From positions 1 to 64,000 of the forward strand of contig JBCCHV010000015.1 of the NCBI GenBank assembly GCA_039028635.1: a stretch of DNA of 64,000 bases, written 5' to 3'. This DNA comes from Acidobacteriota bacterium. GTDB taxonomy: Bacteria; Acidobacteriota; Thermoanaerobaculia; Multivoradales; JBCCEF01. The notes below the pieces were generated by a model that was not told the origin of the DNA, ran no database searches, and was given only the letters and a program-made list of their open reading frames with translations. The stretch's first letter is position 1. Each line of letters starts with the position of its first letter. Shown here one piece after another: positions 1,555 to 45,293 of the stretch. The position numbers were made by a program, and so were the translations under genes.

Positions 1555-2046
1555 ATGGAGCAGAGTGATCTACGAGCCATCTCGGTGGTCGTCAATGGGG
1601 TGTCCCATCGCTGCCGGGTGGAGCCTCGCCTGCTGCTGAGCGACTTTCTACGCCATCATCTCGGCCTCACCGGAACCCGCGTCGGTTGTGAGCACGGCGT
1701 CTGCGGCGCCTGCACCATCCACCTCGACGGCACCGCCGTGCGCTCCTGCCTGCTGTTCGCGGTCCAGGTCGACGGTCACGAGCTACGCACCGTCGAAGGC
1801 CTGGCCGCCAGCGACGGTACTCTGCACCCCCTGCAGGAGGCCTTTCGCGACACCCATGGCCTGCAGTGCGGTTTCTGCACCGCCGGTTTTCTGATGAGTC
1901 TGTTGCCTTTCGTCGAGGCCCATGAGGATCCCTCGGAAGCCGAGATTCGCGACGCCATGGGCGGAAATCTCTGCCGCTGCACCGGCTACCAGAAGATTGT
2001 CGCGGCGGTGCAGAAGGCGACGCGGCGGGGCGAGGAATCTCCGTGA
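1555..2046 (+). CDS. Molybdenum hydroxylase, [2Fe-2S] small subunit (CoxS/XdhA-type)
   Basis: This is the iron-sulfur subunit of a xanthine dehydrogenase/CO dehydrogenase-family enzyme. It passes electrons from the Mo site of the next gene product to the FAD subunit. The 163-residue protein has the plant-ferredoxin cluster cysteines C45, C50, C53 and C65 (GCEHGVCGAC) and the second cluster C105, C108, C140 and C142 (QCGFCTAGF, NLCRCTGY). The ATG at 1555 has GGAGGA just upstream; an in-frame GTG/ATG start further upstream would add 19 residues foreign to the family. The stop overlaps the next start in GTGA. It is the first gene of a five-gene operon. Confidence 0.95.
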   Translation: MEQSDLRAISVVVNGVSHRCRVEPRLLLSDFLRHHLGLTGTRVGCEHGVCGACTIHLDGTAVRSCLLFAVQVDGHELRTVEGLAASDGTLHPLQEAFRDTHGLQCGFCTAGFLMSLLPFVEAHEDPSEAEIRDAMGGNLCRCTGYQKIVAAVQKATRRGEESP

Positions 2047-4382
2047 GCTCTCGTCTGGTGGGACGCCGTTTGCGGCGCCAGGAAGATTCGCAGCTGCTCA
2101 CCGGTCAGGCGCGCTTCGTCGATGACATCGACCTCCCGGGGATGCTGCACGTGGCCTTTCTGCGCAGCGATTTCGCCCACGGCCATTTGCGCGGGGTCGA
2201 CGTCGAAGCGGCGCGCCAGCGTCCCGGCGTGGTCGCCGTCTACACCGCCGAGTCCTTGGGCGATTACTGGCGTCCGGGACCGTTGCTGGTGCCGCCGCCG
2301 CCGATACCCGGCATCGAGTTCCACGAGCGCACCCAGGTGCCGCTGGCGCGCGACAAAGTGCGCCACGTCGGCGAGCCGGTGGCGGCGGTGGTGGCGGAGA
2401 GTCGCTACCTCGCCGAGGATGCCGTGGCCGACCTCTATCCCGACATCGAGCCCCTGCCGGCGGTGGTCGACCTGGAGGCGGCCCTCGCCTCCGAGGCGCC
2501 ACGGGTGCACGAGGACCTGGCCTCGAACTTGGCGGCACGGGTGCTGCAGGAGAAGGGCGACTTCGACGCCGCTCGCGAGCAGGCGGCGCACCGGGTGAAG
2601 CGGCGCCTGACCTACGACCATGGGATCGCGGCGGCGATGGAGAATCGCGGCATCGTGGCCGACTGGGATCGCCGCGACCAAACCATGCGCCTCTGGGACA
2701 CCACCCAGGCGCCGATTCCGATCCGCAACGGCCTCGCCGCCATGCTCGGCCTGTCGGAGTCCCAGGTGCGGGTGGTGGCGCCCTTCATCGGTGGCGGCTT
2801 CGGTCCCAAGATCATGATGTTCTATCCCGAGGAGGTGCTCCTCCCCTGGATCTCCATGCAGCTCGACCGGCCGGTGAAGTGGATCGAGGACCGGCAGGAG
2901 AACTTCTTCGCCACCACCCACGAGCGCAGCCAGGTGCACGATGCCGAGATGGTGATCGACGGCGACGGCCGCATCCTGGGGGTGAAGGACGTCTTCCTGC
3001 ACGACACCGGGGCCTATGACACCTATGGCCTGACCGTGCCGATCAACAGCCAGTGCACCCTCCTCGGCTGCTATCGCGTGCCGTCCTATCGCAGCGAGTT
3101 CAAATCGGTGTTCACCAACAAGACCCTGGTGACGCCCTACCGCGGGGCCGGCCGGCAACACGGCGTTTTCGTGATGGAGCGGCTGCTCGACCTGGCGGCC
3201 CGCGAGGCGGGCCTCGACGGCCTCGAGATCCGGCGCCGGAATCTCCTCCAGAAGGATGAGTTTCCCTACAACCAGGAGGTCATCTACCAGGACTTCGCGC
3301 CGCTGGTCTACGACAGCGGCGACTACCTCCCGGCACTCGAAAAGGCCGCCGCGATGATCGGCTGGCGGGAGTTTCGGGAGCGCCCCCGGCGGCACGGCGA
3401 CAAGGCCCTCGGCATCGGCCTGGTGACCTATGTCGAAGGCACCGGAATCGGTCCCTACGAAGGTGCCCGGGTGACCATCGAAGCGAGCGGCAAGGTCAAC
3501 CTCGCCACCGGCGTGGGGACTCAAGGGCAAGGCCATTTCACCGCCTTCGCCCAGCTGGTGGCGGAGCAGCTCGGCGTCGGCGTGGAGGATGTGCGGGTGA
3601 CCACCGGCGATACCGCCGCCTTCCACTGGGGGACCGGTACCTTCGCCAGCCGCGGCGCGGTGGTCGCCGGCAACGCCTGCCACGCCGCCGGGCTCGAGGT
3701 GCGTCGCAAGGTGCTGGAGGCGGCGAGCCGGCACTTCGAAGTGGCGCCGGAGGATCTCGAGCTGGTCGATGGCGAGGTGCGGATTCCGGGGGTTCCGGGC
3801 AAGACCATCTCCCTGGGAGCCCTGGCGGTGCAGGCCAACCCGCTGCGCGGTGCCGTCGCCCCGGGCACCGAGCCCGGCCTCGAGGCGACCACCTATTTCG
3901 GTCCCGAGAGCAGTACGACGGCGAGCGGCGTGCACGCCATGGTGGTGGAGGTCGATCTCGCCACCTACGACGTCGACATCCAGCGCTATGTGGTGGTCCA
4001 CGACTGCGGCCGGGTGATCAACCCCCTGATCCTCGAGGGGCAGATTGAGGGCGGCGTGGCCCAGGGCATCGGCAATGCCTTCTATGAGCAACTGATCTAC
4101 GACGACGAAGGGCAGCTCCTCAACGCCTCCCTGATGGATTACCTGTTGCCGACGGCGGACTGTGTGCCGACGATCGAAGGGGCCCATCTCGAGACGCCGT
4201 CACCGCTCAATCCCCTCGGCATCAAGGGAGCCGGCGAAGCCGGCGCGATTCCGGTGGGGGCGCTGTTCGCCCAGGCGGTGGAAGATGCGCTGCGCCACAC
4301 CGGCGTCGAGATCCTTGACATCCCCCTCAGCCCGCATCGCCTGTTCGAGCTCATGCAGCAGCGCCGGGAGTCGCAACCGTGA
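2043..4382 (+). CDS. Molybdenum hydroxylase, molybdopterin-binding large subunit (CoxL/XdhB-type)
   Basis: This 779-residue catalytic subunit binds the molybdopterin cytosine dinucleotide cofactor. The N-terminal a/b-hammerhead region (residues about 10-130) is followed by the two Mo-binding domains with GGGFGPKI near residue 260 and TPYRGAGRQ near 365. Later come TQGQGHFT and a C-terminal GIKGAGEAGAIP containing the expected catalytic Glu. The loop is YRGAGR, not the AYxCSFR of true form I CO dehydrogenase, so this is a form II or other hydroxylase of unknown substrate, probably an N-heterocycle or aldehyde. The GTG start overlaps the small-subunit stop, and the end overlaps the FAD subunit. 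Confidence 0.93.
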   Translation: MSSRLVGRRLRRQEDSQLLTGQARFVDDIDLPGMLHVAFLRSDFAHGHLRGVDVEAARQRPGVVAVYTAESLGDYWRPGPLLVPPPPIPGIEFHERTQVPLARDKVRHVGEPVAAVVAESRYLAEDAVADLYPDIEPLPAVVDLEAALASEAPRVHEDLASNLAARVLQEKGDFDAAREQAAHRVKRRLTYDHGIAAAMENRGIVADWDRRDQTMRLWDTTQAPIPIRNGLAAMLGLSESQVRVVAPFIGGGFGPKIMMFYPEEVLLPWISMQLDRPVKWIEDRQENFFATTHERSQVHDAEMVIDGDGRILGVKDVFLHDTGAYDTYGLTVPINSQCTLLGCYRVPSYRSEFKSVFTNKTLVTPYRGAGRQHGVFVMERLLDLAAREAGLDGLEIRRRNLLQKDEFPYNQEVIYQDFAPLVYDSGDYLPALEKAAAMIGWREFRERPRRHGDKALGIGLVTYVEGTGIGPYEGARVTIEASGKVNLATGVGTQGQGHFTAFAQLVAEQLGVGVEDVRVTTGDTAAFHWGTGTFASRGAVVAGNACHAAGLEVRRKVLEAASRHFEVAPEDLELVDGEVRIPGVPGKTISLGALAVQANPLRGAVAPGTEPGLEATTYFGPESSTTASGVHAMVVEVDLATYDVDIQRYVVVHDCGRVINPLILEGQIEGGVAQGIGNAFYEQLIYDDEGQLLNASLMDYLLPTADCVPTIEGAHLETPSPLNPLGIKGAGEAGAIPVGALFAQAVEDALRHTGVEILDIPLSPHRLFELMQQRRESQP

Positions 4383-5269
4383 AGCCGGCGGCCTTCGACT
4401 ACCGCCGGCCCGCCACCGTCGACGAGGTGGTGGCGCTTCTCGCCGAGCACGGCGACGAAGCCAAGGTTCTCGCCGGCGGACAGAGTCTGGTGCCAGCGAT
4501 GAACTTTCGCCTCGCCCAGCCGCGGATTCTGATCGACCTGCAGGACGTCGCCGGCCTCGATCACCTGGAGGAATCGGCGGGCGCTTTGCGGATTGGGGCG
4601 ATGTGTCGTCAGCGCCAGGTCGAGCGCAGTCCGCTGGTCGCGGAGCGGACGCCACTGCTGGCCGCCGCCATGCCGTCCATCGCCCATCCCCAGATCCGCA
4701 ACCGCGGCACCTTCGGTGGCTCCCTCGCCCACGCCGATCCCGCTTCCGAGCTACCGGCGGTGCTCGCCGCCCTCGGTGGGCGCCTGCGGGTGCGACGGCA
4801 GAGCGCCGAGGAGTGGGTCGCGGTGGACGATTTCTTCGTTTCCCTGTTCACCACCGCCCTGGGCAGCGACGGCCTGCTGCTCGAGGTCGAAGTGCCCTTT
4901 CAGGAGGCCGCTTCGGGATGGGCCTTCGAAGAGTTCTCGCGGCGCCACGGCGACTACGCCCTGGTCGGCGTAGCGGTGGTGCTGGGTTTCGCCGGCGCGC
5001 GCTGTCGCCATGCCCGTATCGCCCTGTTCTCCGTCGGCGAGGGTCCGGTGCGGGCGCGCCGCGCCGAGGAGCTCTTGCAGGCGGGGTCTTGGGAAGACGC
5101 GGACGCCGCCACGGCGACGCTGCAGCGGGCGGCGTCGACGGCGGCGCAGGAAGACATCGAACCGCCGGGAGATATTCACGCCTCTGCCGACTACCGCCGT
5201 CACCTCGCCGAGGTGTTGACCGGCCGAACGCTGCGTCGCGCGGCGGAACGCGCCGGCCGGAGCCTGTGA
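4379..5269 (+). CDS. Molybdenum hydroxylase, FAD-binding medium subunit (CoxM/XdhC-type)
   Basis: This 296-residue subunit takes electrons from the iron-sulfur subunit and passes them to the final acceptor. FAD-binding motifs are AGGQSLVPAMNFRLAQP (near residue 32) and HPQIRNRGTFGGSLAHADP (near 100), followed by the CO dehydrogenase flavoprotein C-terminal domain. The GTG start overlaps the large-subunit stop by 4 nt. The order small-large-medium differs from the classical medium-small-large cox order. A 73-bp gap separates it from the cyclase gene. Confidence 0.93.
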   Translation: MKPAAFDYRRPATVDEVVALLAEHGDEAKVLAGGQSLVPAMNFRLAQPRILIDLQDVAGLDHLEESAGALRIGAMCRQRQVERSPLVAERTPLLAAAMPSIAHPQIRNRGTFGGSLAHADPASELPAVLAALGGRLRVRRQSAEEWVAVDDFFVSLFTTALGSDGLLLEVEVPFQEAASGWAFEEFSRRHGDYALVGVAVVLGFAGARCRHARIALFSVGEGPVRARRAEELLQAGSWEDADAATATLQRAASTAAQEDIEPPGDIHASADYRRHLAEVLTGRTLRRAAERAGRSL

Positions 5270-5342
5270 AGCGCCGCCGGCTCGAGTGCGCGCGTCCGGC
5301 AGGAATGAAACCGACCATCGCAACCCATCTCGAGGAGCTGCC

Positions 5343-6128
5343 ATGAGGCTGATCGACCTTTCCCAACCGCTCAACCAGGATTGCCCCTCCTGGCCCTACT
5401 ATCCACCCTTCGAGGTCAAGTACATCAAGCGCAAGGCGGAGCACGGGGTCAACGCCCAGTACATCCAGACCTCAAATCACATGGGAACCCATCTCGATGC
5501 GCCGCGGCACTTCGTCACCGGCGGCATGACCATCGACGAGATTCCCCTCGATTGGCTCTGCAACACCGGCGTGATCGTCGATCTGCGGGACGAGATGGAC
5601 GAGCTCGCCGCCTATACGCCGGAGATGATCGAAGCGCGCGTCGAGGTGCGGGAAGGGGACATCCTGCTGCTGCACACCGGTTGGCATCGCTACGCCCAGT
5701 TCGGGGCCGAGCCCGATGAAGAGCGCTATATCCACCGTCATCCGGGCGCTCACCCGCGGATGGTCGACTGGCTGCTGGAGAAGAAGATCCGCATCTGGGG
5801 GGTCGACTGTATTTCGACGGATCACCCGATGAACCTGCCTATCGGTCGCTTCCTCGGCAAGGGCATGCACGGCCACTGCGATCGGGTGCGGGCGCAGTGC
5901 GAAGCCAAGTTCGGCAAAGAGGAGATGGCGGAGCTGTTCCCGGACGAGGCCTATCAGCTCACCCACAACGCCCTCTTCCCGCACAACTGCATGCACATCG
6001 AGAATCTCGGTGGCGACATCGATGCCGCCGAGCTGCAGAACCGGCGCCTGACCATCGGTTGCTTCCCCTGGAAGTTCAAGGGCGGTGAGGCGGCCTTCTG
6101 TCGCACCGTCGCGTTTCTCGACGCCTAG
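5343..6128 (+). CDS. Cyclase-family metal-dependent hydrolase (kynurenine formamidase-like)
   Basis: This 261-residue protein of the cyclase family (PF04199) includes bacterial arylformamidases, isatin hydrolases and ring-opening amidohydrolases. It carries the metal-binding signature HMGTHLDAPRHF near residue 47 and later conserved GVDCISTDHP and LFPHNCMHIENL. The ATG at 5343 has GAGGAG about 8 nt upstream, and an upstream in-frame GTG (5286) gives a non-conserved extension. Its place between a molybdenum hydroxylase and an amidase suggests hydrolysis of an oxidised ring or formamide, with the substrate unknown. Confidence 0.88.
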   Translation: MRLIDLSQPLNQDCPSWPYYPPFEVKYIKRKAEHGVNAQYIQTSNHMGTHLDAPRHFVTGGMTIDEIPLDWLCNTGVIVDLRDEMDELAAYTPEMIEARVEVREGDILLLHTGWHRYAQFGAEPDEERYIHRHPGAHPRMVDWLLEKKIRIWGVDCISTDHPMNLPIGRFLGKGMHGHCDRVRAQCEAKFGKEEMAELFPDEAYQLTHNALFPHNCMHIENLGGDIDAAELQNRRLTIGCFPWKFKGGEAAFCRTVAFLDA

Positions 6129-6145
6129 CCTGGAGCTGTCGCGAG

Positions 6146-7546
6146 ATGAGGCAGATCGCCCTGCTGACGGCGGTGGAGATGCGGCGACGGCTGGCGCGGC
6201 GGGAGCTCACCGCCGAGGCCTTGACCGCCGCCTGTCTCGACCGGGTCGAGCGCTTCGATTCCCTGCTGGGGGCGATCTGCACCCCCTCTCCGGACGCCCT
6301 CGAAGAAGCCCGCGAGCTCGACCGCCGGAGCGCGGCGGGGGAGCCCCAGGGCCTCCTCCATGGGCTGCCGGTGGGGATCAAGGACGTCACCGAGACGGCC
6401 GGCCTGCGCACCACCTATGGCTCTCTCCTCTACGCCGATCACGTACCGAAAGAGGATGCCGTGGTGGTCGAGCGCCTGCGCCGCGTCGGGGCCGTCATCC
6501 TGGGCAAGACCAACACCCCGGAGTTCGCCACCGGTGGCAACACCTTCAACGAGGTCTTCGGTCGCACCCGCAACCCGTGGAATCCGGAGCGCAGCGCCGG
6601 GGGCTCGACGGGCGGTGGCGCCGCGGCCTTGGCGAGCGGCATGATCGCCCTCGCCCAGGGCACCGATCTCGGCGGATCGTTGCGCATTCCCGCCGCCTTC
6701 TGCGGCATCGTCGGTCTGCGGCCCTCGCCGGGCCTGGTGCCGACGGTGCCGAGCGATTTTCTGTGGGACAGCTATCAGGTTTCCGGGTTCATGGCGCGGG
6801 ACGCCGAGGACGTCGCCCTGGCCCTCGACGCGGTGGCCGGGCCGAGTCGGCGATCGCCCCTCTGCCAGCCGGTCGCCGGTCGCGCCTTTCTCGAGTCGGT
6901 GCAAGCGGAGGGTAGGCCCCGAGGGCGCTATGCCTACTGTCCGGACATCGCCGGCATCGGAGTCGACGGCGCGGTTCTCGAGGTCTGCGGCCAGGCCGTC
7001 GAGGCGCTGCGCGGCGCCGGCGCCGAGGTGCGCGAGATCGAGCTCGATCTGGCCTTCGCCCGGCAGCCGTTCCTGGCCCTGCGGGGGCTCTGGATGGTGA
7101 CCCAGCAGCTCGGCCGCCTGCACCACCTCGAGCGCTTCGGCGACAACCTGGCCGGCAACGTGCGCGCCGGCCTCGATGTGTCGGCCCGCGATCTCGCCGA
7201 AGCGGAGCGCACGCGCAGCCGTCTCTGGCGGCTCTTCGGGGAGCTCTTCGAGGACTACGACGGCCTGCTCACGCCGACCCTGCCGGTGGCGCCCTTTCCG
7301 GTGGAGGAGAACTATCCCACCACCGTTGGCGGTCGCGAGATGGAGACCTATATCGACTGGGTCGCGCCGACCTTCGTCCTCACCATGACCGGTTTGCCGG
7401 CGGCGTCGGTGCCCGCCGGAGTCGACGACGATGGACTGCCCGTCGGCCTGCAGATCGTCACCCCGCCCCAGGGCGAGGAGGCGGCCCTGGCGGTGGCGCG
7501 CTGGGTGCAGCAGGTGGTGCCGCTGGGGACTCCGCCCTTGGATTGA
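6146..7546 (+). CDS. Amidase signature family enzyme
   Basis: This 466-residue Ser-cisSer-Lys amidase has the catalytic Lys at residue 79 (VGIKDVTETAG), the glycine/serine-rich SAGGSTGGGAAALASG around 153, and GTDLGGSLRIPAAFCG around 175 with the nucleophile and bridging serines. Its length matches general amidases. It is not convincingly GatA because no gatB/gatC are adjacent and it follows a catabolic operon by 17 nt. It is likely to hydrolyse an amide formed by the preceding enzymes. The 26-bp palindrome at 7590-7615 lies just downstream. Confidence 0.9.
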   Translation: MRQIALLTAVEMRRRLARRELTAEALTAACLDRVERFDSLLGAICTPSPDALEEARELDRRSAAGEPQGLLHGLPVGIKDVTETAGLRTTYGSLLYADHVPKEDAVVVERLRRVGAVILGKTNTPEFATGGNTFNEVFGRTRNPWNPERSAGGSTGGGAAALASGMIALAQGTDLGGSLRIPAAFCGIVGLRPSPGLVPTVPSDFLWDSYQVSGFMARDAEDVALALDAVAGPSRRSPLCQPVAGRAFLESVQAEGRPRGRYAYCPDIAGIGVDGAVLEVCGQAVEALRGAGAEVREIELDLAFARQPFLALRGLWMVTQQLGRLHHLERFGDNLAGNVRAGLDVSARDLAEAERTRSRLWRLFGELFEDYDGLLTPTLPVAPFPVEENYPTTVGGREMETYIDWVAPTFVLTMTGLPAASVPAGVDDDGLPVGLQIVTPPQGEEAALAVARWVQQVVPLGTPPLD

Positions 7547-40309: not shown

Positions 40310-41647
40310 CTACTGTTCGAAACGCAACTCCGGGTTGTCGCGCGACTGGCGCAGGTAGAGGTGGACGCGACGCACTAGCTGCGGTGAGACCAGGTCGACT
40401 TCCGCCGCCTGGCGGAAGTAGCTCAGGGCGATCCTCGCCTCGCGGTGGATTTGGCGGTCCTGGAAGATCGGGAGCATCTCGCGGGCGAGCCGTCGAAGGT
40501 CGGCCTCCCGCCCCTGCTGGGCATAGATCGAGGCGAGGTCGAGGGACACCAAGGCGGCGTCGTAGACGATCTCCTGGTCGAGAAAGCCGCGTCGAGCCTC
40601 GAGCAGCCGTCCTTCGGCTTCGTCGAGCTGGCCCAGGCCGCGGAGGATCTTGCCTTCGACCCACAGGCGCCGGCGCTGAGTCCAGGCGTCCGGGAATTGT
40701 TCGTAGAGGGGCCTCGCCTCGCGCAGCACGGCTCGCGCCTCGAGGTGCTTCTCGAGGTCGCTGAGATAGTCGGCGAGGTTGTGGCGGGCGCACAGCCGCA
40801 GGCGCGGCTCACGGGCGGCATCGAGGTACTCGACCGCTTCGCGCAGCACCTCGGTGGCCTTTTCGGGGGCGCCGATGGCGCGATGGAGGGAGGCTTTCGA
40901 GATCAGGGCGCGGCCGGCGCGGTGGGTCTCGTCCGCCGACCGGTAACGGCGAATGGCCCGCTGTAGCAGATGGGTGGCTTCGTCGAAGCGGCGCTGGTCC
41001 TTGCGCAAGGTGGCCGTCAACTCCAGGATGCGGGCCTTCTCGAGGGGGTCACCGGTGCCGAAGCGCAGGGCCTCGTCGGCCTGGACGAGGAGAGCTTCGG
41101 CGGCCTCCAGGTCCGAGCGCATGCGCAGGCTGTTGGCGAGATAGGCCAGACCGCGGGCGCGCAAGTCCTCCTTGAGGGCGAGCTCCTGCGAGTCACCCTC
41201 GAGGACCTCGATCACCTGCAGCCCCAAGCGGGCGAGAATTTCGGCCCGCACCGGGTCGTCGAAGCTGCGAGCGCGGGAGCGGTCGAGGAGCAGCTCGGCC
41301 AGCGGCCAGCTGCGCAGCCGCGGGTCCTGCTCGATGGAGCGCCGGCGTTCGGCAGCCGGTTGCAGCAGCAACTCGGCGAGCAGCACCGGCGCTTCGGCCT
41401 CTTCGCGGCTCAGGCTCAAGCCCGCTTGCTGGGCCCTTTCCACCACCCGGTCCAGGATGCCCTGATAGCTGGCCGTCGGCCAGGCGATCACCCGTGCCAG
41501 GGGACCATCCTCCTGGTCGATCAGCCGCTTCATTTCGCCGCGACAGCGCTCGCAGTCGAGCAGGTGTTTCAGGCACTGGCGCTGTAGCTTGCTCTCGATC
41601 CGGTCGAGCAGGGAGCCTAGGGTCGTGCGGTTGGGATGGAGCTTCAC
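40310..41647 (-). CDS. TPR protein with N-terminal HxxxCxxC (zinc anti-sigma-like) motif
   Basis: This 445-residue protein has His28-x3-Cys32-x2-Cys35 (HLLDCERC), the pattern of zinc-binding anti-sigma domains, then roughly eight TPR-like helical pairs from residue 140 to 430. There is no membrane segment. It is a paralogue of the protein at 43953-45293: the three metal-ligand residues are at identical positions, and the C-termini align (YDAALVSLDLASIYAQQGR against FDAALVALDLALVLNRQGR). The GTG start overlaps the stop of the mini-sigma-like gene in GTGA, so the two are translationally coupled and probably interact. Its role is not established. Confidence 0.8.
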   Translation of the reverse strand: MKLHPNRTTLGSLLDRIESKLQRQCLKHLLDCERCRGEMKRLIDQEDGPLARVIAWPTASYQGILDRVVERAQQAGLSLSREEAEAPVLLAELLLQPAAERRRSIEQDPRLRSWPLAELLLDRSRARSFDDPVRAEILARLGLQVIEVLEGDSQELALKEDLRARGLAYLANSLRMRSDLEAAEALLVQADEALRFGTGDPLEKARILELTATLRKDQRRFDEATHLLQRAIRRYRSADETHRAGRALISKASLHRAIGAPEKATEVLREAVEYLDAAREPRLRLCARHNLADYLSDLEKHLEARAVLREARPLYEQFPDAWTQRRRLWVEGKILRGLGQLDEAEGRLLEARRGFLDQEIVYDAALVSLDLASIYAQQGREADLRRLAREMLPIFQDRQIHREARIALSYFRQAAEVDLVSPQLVRRVHLYLRQSRDNPELRFEQ

Positions 41648-41853
41648 GGCCGGCTCTCCCGCAGCACTTTCTGGGTGACCATTTCGAGGATCCAGGCCTC
41701 GGGGCTCTCGATGTCGCGATGCTTGCGAGCGTAGATCGCGAGCACGTCTTCGACGATGCGGCCGGCCTGCTGCGGTGGGACTTCGTGACGCAGGAACAAG
41801 AGCTCGAGGGCCGGGGAAAGGCGGTCGAAGATCTCTTCCAGATATTCCGGCAT
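41644..41853 (-). CDS. Sigma-70 region 2-like mini-protein
   Basis: This 69-residue protein reads like region 2 of an ECF sigma factor without region 4: LEEIFDRLSPALELLFLRHEVPP, then GRIVEDVLAIYARKHRDIESPEAWILEMVTQKV. The VxPxxAxxIVxDV and SPEAWIL segments correspond to the core-binding helices and the region 2.3-2.4 boundary. A full ECF factor is about 170-190 residues. It is coupled by a 4-nt overlap to the HxxxCxxC-TPR gene, the order expected for a sigma/anti-sigma pair. It may bind RNA polymerase core or only the TPR protein. TATACT at 41891-41896 (minus strand) is a possible -10 box. Confidence 0.6.
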   Translation of the reverse strand: MPEYLEEIFDRLSPALELLFLRHEVPPQQAGRIVEDVLAIYARKHRDIESPEAWILEMVTQKVLRESRP

Positions 41854-41915
41854 GCGCTCGATACTCGGTTCAAATAATTAATTTCTGGAGAGTATACCTC
41901 ATTTCGACACGCGAG

Positions 41916-41959
41916 GGCGCCGGCGTCATCGCGAATTCGGTGACGATCACGCCGGCGCC
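41916..41959 (-). terminator. Strong hairpin between the exported-peptide gene and the mini-sigma gene
   Basis: Exact 11-bp arms GGCGCCGGCGT and ACGCCGGCGCC enclose a 22-nt loop, a few bases after the stop of the exported small protein. There is no T-run. It could terminate or attenuate transcription so that the small protein is made in excess over the mini-sigma and TPR proteins, or could stabilise the mRNA 3' end. Confidence 0.5.
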
Positions 41960-41966
41960 GAGGGCC

Positions 41967-42206
41967 TCAGAATTCCTCGTCTTCGATCGCTCGCAGGCCG
42001 TTGGGGTCCATGTCGGAGCCGGCTTCGTTGCCTTCCTCCGGCGGCGGAGCCTCGCTGCCGACGACGCGCTCGATGACGCTGAAGATCCTATTCCAAAGGC
42101 TCTCACGCTCCGCTTCTTGGGCGCCAAAGGCGGCGCCGGAGAGGGCGAGGCCGAGGATCAAGGTCCAGGCGATGAGGGGGCGAGGGTGGGTTTTCTGTCG
42201 ACGCAT
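41967..42206 (-). CDS. Small exported acidic protein, module 1
   Basis: This 79-residue protein has a signal peptide (basic start, then AWTLILGLALSGAAFGA, cleavage after the last Ala). The mature part is about 50 residues: an amphipathic stretch with LWNRIFSVIERVV, a Pro/Glu/Gly-rich segment, then DMDPNG and an acidic end EDEEF. The ATG at 42206 has GGAGG at good spacing. The protein at 43477-43767 has the same plan. Both sit upstream of an HxxxCxxC-TPR gene. It may be a secreted signal, a surface peptide or a periplasmic ligand; I know of no described function. Confidence 0.7.
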   Translation of the reverse strand: MRRQKTHPRPLIAWTLILGLALSGAAFGAQEAERESLWNRIFSVIERVVGSEAPPPEEGNEAGSDMDPNGLRAIEDEEF

Positions 42207-42299
42207 GGTGCCTCCGTTGGTGGATTGGCGGATGTTGCCCTGGCTGGGCTACGGTTCGCTAATCAAGAGGTGATTCCAGGAATGATATTCGGGACAAAA

Positions 42300-42310
42300 A
42301 ATTATCGAAA
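42300..42310 (-). promoter_or_regulatory. Shared motif TTTCGATAATT upstream of module 1
   Basis: TTTCGATAATT on the minus strand lies in an AT-rich patch about 94 nt before the exported-peptide gene at 42206. The identical 11-mer occurs on the plus strand at 43333-43343 before the paralogous peptide gene. In such a G+C-rich genome this is a good candidate for a shared operator or promoter element. Confidence 0.5.
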
Positions 42311-42330
42311 TAAGAAATTTTCAAACTAAC

Positions 42331-42352
42331 CCCCAGCTCCTTCGGAGCGGGG
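42331..42352. repeat. Short G+C hairpin upstream of the bacilliredoxin gene
   Basis: CCCCAGCTCC-TTC-GGAGCGGGG can fold with a short loop. It separates the AT-rich control region of module 1 from the bacilliredoxin gene, so it could act as a terminator or insulator between divergent units. Confidence 0.35.
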
Positions 42353-42457
42353 TGGCCTGAGCGCTTCCTTGGCATAGAATTGGAATCCCCACGGGCGTTG
42401 CCCGGTTGCGTATTCCCGCAGAGTCCGAGACCTATCTTTCCGAGGAGGAGTGAAGCA

Positions 42458-42889
42458 ATGCCCTACAGCCCACTGCTGGTCAAGCCGATGCGCGAGGAGC
42501 TCACGGCGATCGGCGTCGCCGAGCTGCGCAGCGCCGAGGAGGTCGATCAATTCATGAGCCAGAAGACCGGCTCCAGCCTGCTGGTGGTCAATTCCGTCTG
42601 CGGTTGTGCCGCCGGCATGGCGCGTCCGGGGGTTCGCCTGGCGCTGGAAGCGGGACCGGCGCCGGCCCGTGTCGGCTCGGTATTCGCCGGCCAGGATGTC
42701 GAAGCGACGGCGCGGGCGCGGGCGTATTTTCCGGAGATTCCTCCGAGCAGCCCGTGCATGGCGATCTTCCACGATGGTGAGCTGGTGTTCTTTCTCCCAC
42801 GGCATCGCATCGAAGGGCGATCGGCGCAGGAAGTGGCCCAGGATCTGGTGGCGGCGTTGCAGGAGAACGCTTCGCCGGCGACCGCCTGA
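42458..42889 (+). CDS. BrxA/BrxB-family bacilliredoxin
   Basis: This 143-residue protein is of the YphP/BrxA family, thiol-disulfide proteins that remove bacillithiol from S-thiolated proteins in Firmicutes. The active site is Cys48-Gly-Cys50 in VVNSVCGCAAGMARP, followed by SVFAGQDVEATARAR and PSSPCMAIF. Bacillithiol users outside Firmicutes include some Deinococcus and Acidobacteria, so the partner thiol is uncertain. The ATG at 42458 has GAGGAGGAG about 8 nt upstream. It is followed by the small Sm-like gene after 5 nt, between the two divergent TPR modules. Confidence 0.9.
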   Translation: MPYSPLLVKPMREELTAIGVAELRSAEEVDQFMSQKTGSSLLVVNSVCGCAAGMARPGVRLALEAGPAPARVGSVFAGQDVEATARARAYFPEIPPSSPCMAIFHDGELVFFLPRHRIEGRSAQEVAQDLVAALQENASPATA

Positions 42890-42894
42890 GCGCG

Positions 42895-43167
42895 ATGGGT
42901 ACCTTCCATCAGAACAAGCACGCCCTCCACGGCATCACGGTGGTGGTCGAGACGGCCGGCGGAGAGACCTTCGTCGGCCGTTGTGACGACATCACCGAGG
43001 AGCAGGTGATCCTGCGCGATGTCGATGTCCATCGACCCGAAGAGGGCGGGCCTACGAAAGCGGAGTACCTCTCCCGGGCAGCACGCTTCGGGGTTTGGAA
43101 GAAGCACGACCGCCTGGTGTTGCCGCGGCAGAAGGTCGAAGCGATCGCGCGTCTCGGCGAATTCTGA
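42895..43167 (+). CDS. Small protein with Sm-like strand pattern
   Basis: This 90-residue protein has no named family that I recognise. HGITVVVETAGGETFVGRC followed by CDDITEEQVILRD and a final LVLPRQKVEAIARL follows the Sm1-Sm2 pattern (G-x2-F-x-G, then an acidic turn, then a hydrophobic strand), comparable to Hfq at 63438. This is only pattern likeness. It is 5 nt after the bacilliredoxin gene and probably cotranscribed. It could be a nucleic-acid- or metabolite-binding barrel. Confidence 0.6.
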   Translation: MGTFHQNKHALHGITVVVETAGGETFVGRCDDITEEQVILRDVDVHRPEEGGPTKAEYLSRAARFGVWKKHDRLVLPRQKVEAIARLGEF

Positions 43168-43305
43168 CCTTTTCGGGGCCTGCGCGCCCTTTTCGCGCCG
43201 TCTGCCGCCTCGAATCGGCCCCTCGACGGCCTCCGCGAAGTACCGAAAAGATAAGTATTGACAGTCTTTTTCGGCTCACTCCCGGGTGAGTCGAAAGGGG
43301 TTCCT

Positions 43306-43333
43306 TTGATCGCGCTTATTTACGTGTTAATAT
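43306..43333 (+). promoter_or_regulatory. Candidate sigma-70-type promoter for module 2
   Basis: TTGATC and TAATAT with a 16-nt spacer make a plausible -35/-10 pair, giving a leader of about 135 nt before the exported-peptide gene. The shared TTTCGATAATT motif overlaps the end of the -10 box, as a repressor or activator site might. Confidence 0.4.
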
Positions 43334-43343
43334 TTCGATAATT
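43333..43343 (+). promoter_or_regulatory. Shared motif TTTCGATAATT upstream of module 2
   Basis: This is an identical copy of the 11-mer found on the opposite strand at 42300-42310. It lies 134 nt before the peptide gene start and touches the proposed -10 box. Confidence 0.5.
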
Positions 43344-43476
43344 CGCTGGATCAGGGCGCTCTGGAGGGTTGACTGTCCCCCTGACGGGGTGGCCGACTCA
43401 CAGAACTAGTGGAGGAGGGATTCTCGGCTCCCGCGGTGGGAGACCCCGGTCCCTTGGAAAACTAGGAGGCGAGACA

Positions 43477-43767
43477 ATGACCCGTTTTTCGAGAATTCGC
43501 CGCGTCGCGATCCTTCTGTCGGTGGCTCTGATGATGCTGCCGGCAGGCACCCTGTGGGCTGGCCCGTGGGATTCGGCCGAAGGCGAGACGACATTCTTCC
43601 AACAGTGGTACCAGCAGCTCGTCGAGTGGGCCGAGAAGGTCGAGAGCATGTGGGGCGGGAACGAGGGGGGTGGCTTCGATCCCTTCGGTATTTCCGCCGC
43701 GGCACACAGCGGTGAGGGCGAGGAGCCGACCTCGAACTTCGAGTTCGGAAGCGCCGAAGAGGAGTGA
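43477..43767 (+). CDS. Small exported acidic protein, module 2
   Basis: This 96-residue protein has a signal peptide (FSRIRRVAILLSVALMM, cleavage near TLWAG). The mature part has an aromatic amphipathic helix (FFQQWYQQLVEWAEKVESMW), a glycine run, FDPFG, and an acidic end SAEEE. The plan matches the protein at 41967-42206: signal peptide, Trp-containing helix, D-P-x-G, acidic tail. AGGAGG lies 7 nt before the ATG at 43477. A 185-bp gap leads to the TPR gene. Its function is unknown; a secreted or surface peptide is inferred. Confidence 0.7.
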   Translation: MTRFSRIRRVAILLSVALMMLPAGTLWAGPWDSAEGETTFFQQWYQQLVEWAEKVESMWGGNEGGGFDPFGISAAAHSGEGEEPTSNFEFGSAEEE

Positions 43768-43862
43768 TCATCGGCGTATCGAAAGGTGATTTCGGCGATT
43801 TCCGTTGTCCCCTTTTCAGACGCTGATGAAACTACCGTATTAGGGAGCTCGCGAGGCACACC

Positions 43863-43960
43863 ATGGGGTACTTCACCGGACGCCTTCGGATCCCCTTGAA
43901 ATATAGTGATTTTGACTATTTCGAGGTCCCATGAGGGTACTCCCCGAAGCCGATGAATAA
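43863..43960 (+). other. Two chained mini-ORFs leading into the module 2 TPR gene
   Basis: ATG at 43863 opens a 23-codon frame ending with TGA at 43932-43934. That stop overlaps ATG at 43931, which opens a 9-codon frame ending at 43960, past the TPR start at 43953. The TPR gene has no good ribosome site of its own, so translational coupling through these frames is possible. In module 1 the same coupling position is held by the mini-sigma gene. Chance cannot be excluded. Confidence 0.3.
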
Positions 43961-45293
43961 CCACTTGACAGCCGCTGAGATCCGTCGCTTCCTGGCGGCC
44001 GAGACCGCTCTCCAGAATCGCGCCGCGGCACTCCATCTCTTGGAGTGTGAGCAGTGTCGCAAGGCGGCCGTCGAGGCCCTTGGCGCGGGCGGCGGAGAGC
44101 GGTCCGTGCTCGCCAAAGTTCTGCCCTACGGGCGCGCCGTCGAGAAACCGGCGGCGCCCGTCGGCGGCGACCTCAAGTCGCGGCTGCATGTCGCTTTCCA
44201 GGAGGTGCAGGGAAGCTCGCCGCTGCTCGACGATCTCCTCGCCTACTCCTGCGACTGCTGGCCGATGCTGATTCGCAATCAGGCCAAGTATCAGAACCTG
44301 GGTTTCGCCCAGCGCTTGATCCAGGAGGGCCTGGAAGAGGGCTACGGTGAGCTGCGGCGGGCCTTGGCTCTCGCTGAGGCCGGCCTCCAGGTGCTCGGCA
44401 CCCTCGAGTCCCGGCACTACGGGGAGGTGCTCCTCGCCGAGACCCGAGGACGCGGGCTGAGTGTGCTCGGCAACTGTCACCGCCTGCGTGGCGAATTTCA
44501 GCAAGCGGAAGGTTGCTTCGCGCAGGCCGGCGAGCTGCTGAGCCAGGCGGCGGATCCGATCGAGGAGGGCAACTTCCTCTACCTGCGGGCGATTCTCGAC
44601 AAGGATCGCGGGAACCTCGATGTCGCCCTGGCGGGCTTCGAACAGGCGGTGCAGCTCTTCGAGGAGGCCGGCGACGAGCTCAAGGTGGCACGCGTTCTGA
44701 CCTCGATCGGCAATCTGCACCTCGATCGCGCCTGTCCGGAGGACGCGCTGGCGCCGCTTCTCGAGTCGCTGGCCCGCTCCGACGAAGGGGCCGATCCTCG
44801 CGCCGTCCTCTATTCGCGCGCCAACCTGGCGATTTGCTTCGCCGATCTCGGCGAGTTCGCCGAGGCGCGCAACCTCTTCGAGCAGTGCCGCGAAGGCTTC
44901 TCGCGGTTCGCGGACAGCTACACCGTCATCCGCGCCTGCTGGCTGGAAGGCGTCATCGCCTCCGGCTTCGGCGAGGTCGAGATGGCGGAATCCCGTCTCA
45001 AGGAGGCCTTCGAGGCCTACCAGCAGGAAGAGAAGCTCTTCGATGCCGCCCTCGTCGCCCTCGATCTGGCCCTGGTTCTCAATCGCCAGGGGCGCTTTTC
45101 GGAGGTCCGCGACCTGGCGCGACAGTCGCTGGCTGCCCTGGTGCCGGCTGGCGTCTTCAAGGAAGCGGCGACGGCTCTCGCCTTCTTCCACCAGGCGGCC
45201 CACCAGGAAAAAGTCTCGGAAGAGGTCATTCGCGGCGTCGCCCGCTTCCTGCGGCTGGCCAAGACCGACCCCTCGCTCTCGATCCGCACCTGA
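43953..45293 (+). CDS. TPR protein with N-terminal HxxxCxxC motif, module 2
   Basis: This 446-residue cytoplasmic protein has His28, Cys32 and Cys35 (HLLECEQC) at the same positions as the paralogue at 40310-41647. TPR-like helical repeats run from about residue 140 to 430 (GNCHRLRGEFQQAEGCFAQAG, LTSIGNLHLDRACPEDALAPL). The C-terminal block FDAALVALDLALVLNRQGR and the final FLRLAKTDPSL also match the paralogue. No mini-sigma gene precedes it. It probably senses or titrates a partner through the zinc-like motif; no function is known. Confidence 0.78.
   Translation: MNNHLTAAEIRRFLAAETALQNRAAALHLLECEQCRKAAVEALGAGGGERSVLAKVLPYGRAVEKPAAPVGGDLKSRLHVAFQEVQGSSPLLDDLLAYSCDCWPMLIRNQAKYQNLGFAQRLIQEGLEEGYGELRRALALAEAGLQVLGTLESRHYGEVLLAETRGRGLSVLGNCHRLRGEFQQAEGCFAQAGELLSQAADPIEEGNFLYLRAILDKDRGNLDVALAGFEQAVQLFEEAGDELKVARVLTSIGNLHLDRACPEDALAPLLESLARSDEGADPRAVLYSRANLAICFADLGEFAEARNLFEQCREGFSRFADSYTVIRACWLEGVIASGFGEVEMAESRLKEAFEAYQQEEKLFDAALVALDLALVLNRQGRFSEVRDLARQSLAALVPAGVFKEAATALAFFHQAAHQEKVSEEVIRGVARFLRLAKTDPSLSIRT

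Follow-up and report, generated by a model that had tools for sequence, protein, structure and literature searches.

Candidate peptide-to-TPR signalling modules with a putative sigma/anti-sigma output in Acidobacteriota

What might two divergent gene modules, each pairing a small and apparently exported protein with a tetratricopeptide repeat (TPR) protein, do for an acidobacterium? They lie within the window, a stretch of 64,000 nucleotides from contig JBCCHV010000015.1 (assembly GCA_039028635.1). We favor, with a probability of roughly 0.6, a peptide-to-TPR signalling system of Thermoanaerobaculia-type Acidobacteriota which resembles the RRNPP family and uses a sigma/anti-sigma switch as its output. 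RRNPP itself, an intracellular mode of peptide-TPR signalling, is described in the literature as a Firmicutes/Bacillota family (PMC10075063), and a literature search turned up no account of a system of this type from Acidobacteriota. An earlier note on this DNA had left the choice between peptide signalling and a surface-stress system; peptide signalling is the best reading, given the genome-wide gene pairing, the selection on peptide repeats, the ChrR-like head of the TPR protein and the sigma genes of sister loci, whereas nothing was found in support of surface stress.

Two modules, conserved in a second species

Module 1 is read from the minus strand and module 2 from the plus strand, as follows.

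42206-41967 (-): ex1, a 79-aa peptide precursor, predicted to be exported, with a signal peptide, a Trp helix LWNRIFSVIERVV and the single motif EAGSDMDPNG
41853-41644 (-): mini-sigma, a 69-aa fragment of an extracytoplasmic function (ECF) sigma factor, comprising only the initial part of region 2 and no region 4
41647-40310 (-): TPR1, 445 aa, GTG start, a zinc anti-sigma (ZAS)-type head (H4, H28xxxC32xxC35) followed by a TPR superhelix
43477-43767 (+): ex2, a 96-aa precursor, predicted to be exported, with the variant motif GGGFDPFG
43953-45293 (+): TPR2, 446 aa, a paralogous ZAS-TPR regulator with 30% identity to TPR1

Both modules of the earlier note hold up: all five open reading frames (ORFs) are present and coding, with codon usage supporting their frames, and His28, Cys32 and Cys35 do occupy identical positions in TPR1 and TPR2. 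The Pfam model TPR_12 matches both proteins (43.1 bits for TPR1, 60.1 bits for TPR2; cut-off 30.1). While ex2 and TPR2 are direct neighbors, with TPR2 beginning 186 bp downstream, the mini-sigma gene separates ex1 from TPR1 in module 1 and shares 4 nt (GTGA) with the latter, a pattern of translationally coupled genes.

Conservation of the gene association in related genomes had been named beforehand as its test. The block proved syntenic in a second species of the genus (L068), where the five module genes and two intervening genes are kept in order and orientation, and the pairing recurs across loci. Identity to the L068 orthologues is 73% for TPR1, 74% for mini-sigma and 55% for TPR2, and the ratio of nonsynonymous to synonymous differences per site (pN/pS) stays below 1 for every gene (TPR1 0.31, mini-sigma 0.35, TPR2 0.52, ex2 0.56, ex1 0.76). 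The L068 orthologue of ex1 carries two motif copies, EAGPDMDPDG, and the variant motif of module 2, GFDPFG in the window, reads GLDPFL there. Real as the two modules are, they are but a small part of the picture, for the genome holds about 22 such loci and the class many more.

Small, putatively exported proteins accompany the TPR family

The earlier note had proposed to ask how often an exported small protein lies beside homologues of the TPR protein. When TPR2 was searched against the genome of the window, 23 family members were returned at E <= 2e-8, and a DPxG peptide ORF was found within 700 bp of the TPR match for 23/23 of these genes, a count that includes the variant GFDPFG of TPR2, two TPR genes with one common precursor, and leaderless micro-ORFs at five loci where the TPR gene accompanies an XRE-type regulator (XRE-TPR loci). 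When all loci of several genomes were read, motif-bearing exported ORFs numbered 46 in 284 kb around TPR genes versus 1 in 384 kb elsewhere; the lone ORF of the latter lies in a prophage-like XRE-TPR locus, L086. Under a strict rule, 44/67 TPR genes from the various genomes had a motif-bearing exported ORF.

In the window's genome and in others of its order, TPR genes are repeatedly flanked by a small exported protein with a signal-peptide-like start, a short Trp-containing amphipathic helix and at least one motif copy. Of the features that the exported proteins of the window had been said to share, three (signal peptide, Trp helix and D-P-x-G) are found again at dozens of sister loci, but the acidic tail is not general. 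As a defining feature it was dropped: most sister precursors lack it, and many end at or just after the DPxG motif.

Some loci depart from the one-to-one arrangement. At L113 (3162-8001, plus strand), at least three TPR-family genes stand in tandem behind one precursor with the motif TGACIDPNG, and L072 (1007-2146, plus strand) has three closely similar tandem precursors, each with three GSSLDP[SND]G-type copies. L129 and L130 encode an AraC-type helix-turn-helix (HTH) domain fused to the TPR part, and their surroundings yielded no DPxG precursor.

Among 297 genomes of the phylum, the family (A1 profile, E <= 1e-40) was present in the window's class only. The named assemblies with loci, relatives from which the class of the window was deduced, are labeled Thermoanaerobaculum, Thermoanaerobaculia, Holophagales, Acidobacteria and, in one case, Deltaproteobacteria. 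Other families of the class have the same set of sigma, ZAS-TPR and small exported protein with different peptide endings. Examples from one such family are L198, L199, L206, L207 and L211, where a sigma and ZAS-TPR operon is followed by a small exported protein with a different terminal motif; L199 has four RI[AG]PP[TI]G-type copies. Another such ending, of GxIV type, is seen at L147, L148, L151 and L154.

Repeated peptide cores are constant within a precursor and free between precursors

From 111 copies in 56 precursors we derived the motif consensus x-G-[PSGA]-x-[MIL]-D-P-[ND]-G, which sits near the C-terminus of most of the small proteins in one to nine copies each. Two or more copies occur in 31 precursors, with a maximum of nine (HGPR[IV]DPNG, L091). 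Over the five residues that precede the Asp, agreement is 0.68 among copies of one precursor; it falls to 0.27 when different precursors are compared, and to 0.26 when these come from a single genome (permutation p <= 2e-4). At the nucleotide level, the core codons of the repeat copies show a pS of 0.54 and a pN of 0.078, whereas the four codons after each copy, that is, the spacer, show a pS of 0.52 and a pN of 0.58. Since silent sites are near saturation, recent duplication is an unlikely cause of the identity of the copies. A core kept constant inside a precursor and left free between precursors is the pattern expected of specificity-bearing mature peptides, a signature of pheromone precursors.

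The same data bear on two other views of the small proteins. They might have a secreted effector or a structural role, as metal-binding or envelope proteins for instance, with their genes merely under the control of the adjacent sigma or TPR regulator. Regulators often adjoin their target genes, the amphipathic Trp-containing helix is common in the precursors, and DxDPxG-like segments can resemble metal-binding loops. Yet copies that are alike within a precursor and differ between paralogous precursors are unexpected for a common structural motif, and no other gene was seen to recur with the pair at the loci read, so that we regard this account as improbable. Alternatively, the architecture of a leader plus repeated cores, along with a weak similarity of the TPR proteins to those of the FxSxx and HaaT systems, would suit ribosomally synthesized and post-translationally modified peptides (RiPPs) or bacteriocin-like modified peptides with the TPR protein as regulator or immunity protein. 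However, no recurring modification enzyme or dedicated transporter was seen at the loci read, and the NCBIfam matches are far below cut-off; we give this possibility very little weight.

The TPR protein carries an anti-sigma-like head and probably serves several outputs

The earlier note had spoken of an anti-sigma-like TPR sensor, and both the head and the sister loci lend this support. Among aligned family members, H4 is conserved in 85% and H28, C32 and C35 in 95%. Compared with the PDB, the head profile matches 3hug (E 3.4e-7), which we take to be RslA although the PDB record reads probable conserved membrane protein, as well as ChrR (2q1z, E 9e-5) and DdvA (8rlz, E 3e-4). By these matches, the head is a ZAS-type anti-sigma domain; Pfam zf-HC2 matches only 3/41 family members. 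Full-length ECF sigma genes directly precede the TPR gene, overlapping it by 4-19 nt, at L097, L115, L128, L131 and L133.

For the remainder of the protein, an AlphaFold2 model of TPR1 (41-row alignment) reached a predicted local distance difference test score (pLDDT) of 89.9. A Foldseek search with this model returned LGN complexes first, followed by pheromone-bound Rap structures (4gyo, 4i9c, 8rsv, 8rtc) and MalT. The model of an HTH-headed paralogue (pLDDT 84.3) also matches Rap, and PlcR-PapR weakly. By TPR numbering, the strongly conserved or near-invariant residues R165, N172, R175, R246, H289, N290, R326 and W329 are on the concave side.

The sigma fragment of module 1 is likewise recognizable. 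Aligned with the full-length ECF sigmas of sister loci, mini-sigma gives an hhalign probability of 98.6 (E 5.5e-16) over 61 columns, all in region 2, and it ends before the promoter-reading end of that region. This profile match and the purifying selection (pN/pS 0.35) support the truncated, region 2-like sigma described earlier. The same ratio, together with several similar stubs elsewhere, led us to reject a pseudogene remnant, while a working sigma is disfavored, the end of region 2 and the whole of region 4 being absent. Module 1 is hence a degenerate sigma form.

The proposed check for a sigma region 2-like ORF beside TPR homologues had a mixed outcome. Region-2 stubs overlap the TPR gene in the window, L068, L094, L096 and L100, and the L122 stub ends 5 nt before the TPR gene, but most sister loci have none. 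Besides the full-length ECF sigmas, others have an XRE-type protein encoded ahead of the TPR gene (L082, L092), or a TPR part that bears a fused HTH, of XRE type in L099, L104 and L106 and of AraC type in L130. The truncated sigma is therefore outside the core of the system. Found with sigma, stub, XRE and fused HTH, one TPR sensor would serve several outputs, as in RRNPP. A common family of divergent neighbors (YYQLLWESGL..PGDLPGHLKPERIQ...) is seen at three XRE-TPR loci (L194, 3315-3794, minus strand; L195, 1411-1938, minus strand; L196, 1267-1812, minus strand) and might be a regulated target.

The truncated sigma of the window and the missing sigma of module 2 could also suggest that these are decayed sigma/anti-sigma operons with no present signalling role. 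We consider this most unlikely, because purifying selection acts on mini-sigma and the TPR genes (pN/pS 0.31-0.52) and the repeat cores, too, show strong constraint.

Leaderless micro-ORFs at XRE-TPR loci

Each of the genome's five XRE-TPR loci contains a micro-ORF without a leader, 26-34 codons long and convergent towards the TPR gene, whose product reads MW[ED]WILELLGLG ... GADP[ND]G-stop or close to that. A genome-wide search with a micro-ORF profile found exactly these five and, in the sister genome, two strong matches, both beside XRE and TPR ORFs. This search is an independent test. Across the seven micro-ORFs, pN/pS is 0.40.

One such locus, L086 (G000:C7:43000-55000), lies in a prophage-like element that also encodes a phage-type repressor, a serine-type integrase and an Erf annealing protein; two further DPxG-repeat ORFs are nearby:

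6151-6615 (-): XRE
5056-6147 (-): TPR
4958-5059 (+): micro-ORF
1911-2147 (-): repeat ORF
2223-2456 (+): repeat ORF

Scans of viral contigs for relatives of the prophage TPR and of the A6 family found none.

A proposed peptide circuit and the points that weigh against it

Starting from the gene pairing, the motif and its selection, the identity of the head domain and the predicted fold, we infer a chain of export, cleavage, uptake, TPR binding and control of a sigma factor or HTH. Each module would be a pair of peptide signal and receptor. The small protein, given its signal peptide, would be exported through Sec, and one or more G-x-x-[MIL]-D-P-[ND]-G segments at its C-terminus would be excised as the mature oligopeptide. 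The peptide may then return to the cytoplasm, for example via an oligopeptide importer (one OppA-type oligopeptide-binding protein is present), and bind the concave groove of the neighboring TPR protein. Probably the ancestral TPR protein was a ZAS anti-sigma factor, encoded by a gene overlapping an ECF sigma gene, and the bound peptide would cause the sigma to be released or held. The region-2 stub of module 1 was probably retained as a partner for the ZAS head, not as a functional sigma; module 2 seems to have lost its sigma, and in paralogues the output would be an XRE or AraC-type HTH.

Several points weigh against this circuit. The likeness to LGN and Rap, in sequence and in fold, is one that TPR proteins share in general, and models specific to RRNPP gave no match in Pfam or NCBIfam: Pfam yielded only general TPR models, and the NCBIfam matches were far below cut-off. 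Taken together, concave positions show no significant excess of conservation over outer ones (p = 0.19). A weak correlation between TPR and motif distances (Mantel r 0.22, p 0.0016, n=42) speaks for the circuit, but shared ancestry may be all that it reflects. Signal peptides were called by a simple hydrophobicity rule (a charged start plus a hydrophobic core) rather than by SignalP, and Sec secretion is no more than likely. Finally, the XRE-TPR micro-ORFs have no signal peptide, so that a portion of the system may be intracellular or rely on a different exporter.

This last point leads to the strongest competitor, an intracellular ligand. The DPxG proteins would then act on the TPR protein of their own cell, either ahead of export or with no export at all, serving as a co-factor or reporting that export has failed, and the system would sense the state of Sec or of the envelope and not other cells. 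Besides the leaderless micro-ORFs, the proximity of precursor and receptor genes in every case speaks for it. Most precursors, however, have clear signal peptides by the simple rule, and repeated motifs with variable spacers fit proteolytic release better. We consider the intracellular ligand unlikely, if somewhat less so than the effector account, and retain the exported peptide as the preferred signal.

Other features between and upstream of the modules

Two genes separate the modules, and each module has a copy of a short element upstream.

42458-42889 (+): bacilliredoxin-type gene (PF06491), Pfam 179.8 bits, 75% identity in L068, syntenic
42895-43167 (+): 90-aa protein, 67% identity in L068, syntenic, no Pfam family above cut-off
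42300-42311 (-): ATTTCGATAATT element, about 95 bp upstream of ex1
43332-43343 (+): ATTTCGATAATT element, about 135 bp upstream of ex2

Both intervening genes are probably outside the system. As for the element, its 10-base core, TTTCGATAAT, occurs 3 times in the 6.28-Mb genome; the third occurrence (L222:1501-1510, reverse orientation) precedes a gene resembling a secreted subtilisin-type protease. The element is rare in the genome, yet it showed no conservation in the sister genome, and the shared promoter element is only a lead.

Relation to known systems

If the proposed circuit is true, the DPxG proteins are a candidate family of peptide pheromones for a Gram-negative phylum, linking peptide sensing to sigma factors. 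Short peptides such as AGSDMDPNG, HGPRIDPNG and AGSGMDPDG are ready for synthesis and receptor tests, and the selection signal within precursors suggests a purely computational route to pheromone candidates. Tentatively, and at slightly less than even odds, we envisage a distinct peptide language with many channels: as many as two dozen orthogonal DPxG/TPR pairs per genome, most acting via sigma/anti-sigma and not HTH, at least one arbitrium-like prophage pair, and related lineages of the class using other motifs with the same architecture.

Among known proteins, LGN/Pins and kinesin light chain TPRs are superhelical, peptide-binding and among the best PDB matches in fold and sequence, but they are eukaryotic scaffolds without a regulatory head, and the likeness lies in the repeat. 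With ECF sigma factors, mini-sigma shares an alignment to region 2 and differs by its lost region 2 end and region 4. The ZAS factors (ChrR, RsrA, RslA, RsiW) have the same H...HxxxCxxC head, our profile aligning to ChrR residues 6-42, and the sister loci share their overlap with the ECF sigma gene; in contrast, a TPR superhelix forms the sensor part here, and the locus also encodes an exported repeat peptide.

The closest parallels are with RRNPPA (Rap-Phr, NprR-NprX, PlcR-PapR, Rgg-SHP and AimR-AimP of Bacillota and phages). Operational criteria for RRNPP call for a propeptide of 10-100 aa, Sec secretion, a TPR receptor of 250-500 aa and adjacent genes (PMC10075063). The window has propeptides of 79 and 96 aa (some sister precursors are longer, up to 192 aa), receptors of 445 and 446 aa, and adjacent genes. 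In place of an N-terminal HTH or Rap three-helix bundle, however, its receptors have ZAS heads, HTH being found in paralogues only. As neither the head domain nor the family models match, we call the system RRNPP-like and do not file it as a member. The likeness extends to repeated pheromone copies in some propeptides, for which the tandem repeats described previously are a close match (PMC11343458), to many paralogous pairs per genome, to the Rap-like fold, and to HTH-headed and split HTH+TPR paralogues. It also includes one pair in a prophage-like element beside its repressor: at L086, the TPR gene, repressor and DPxG ORFs at an apparent immunity region recall arbitrium, a likeness in arrangement alone. 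What sets the present system apart from RRNPPA is its home in Acidobacteriota, a main head that is a ZAS anti-sigma domain with an ECF sigma, and the conserved DPxG motif.

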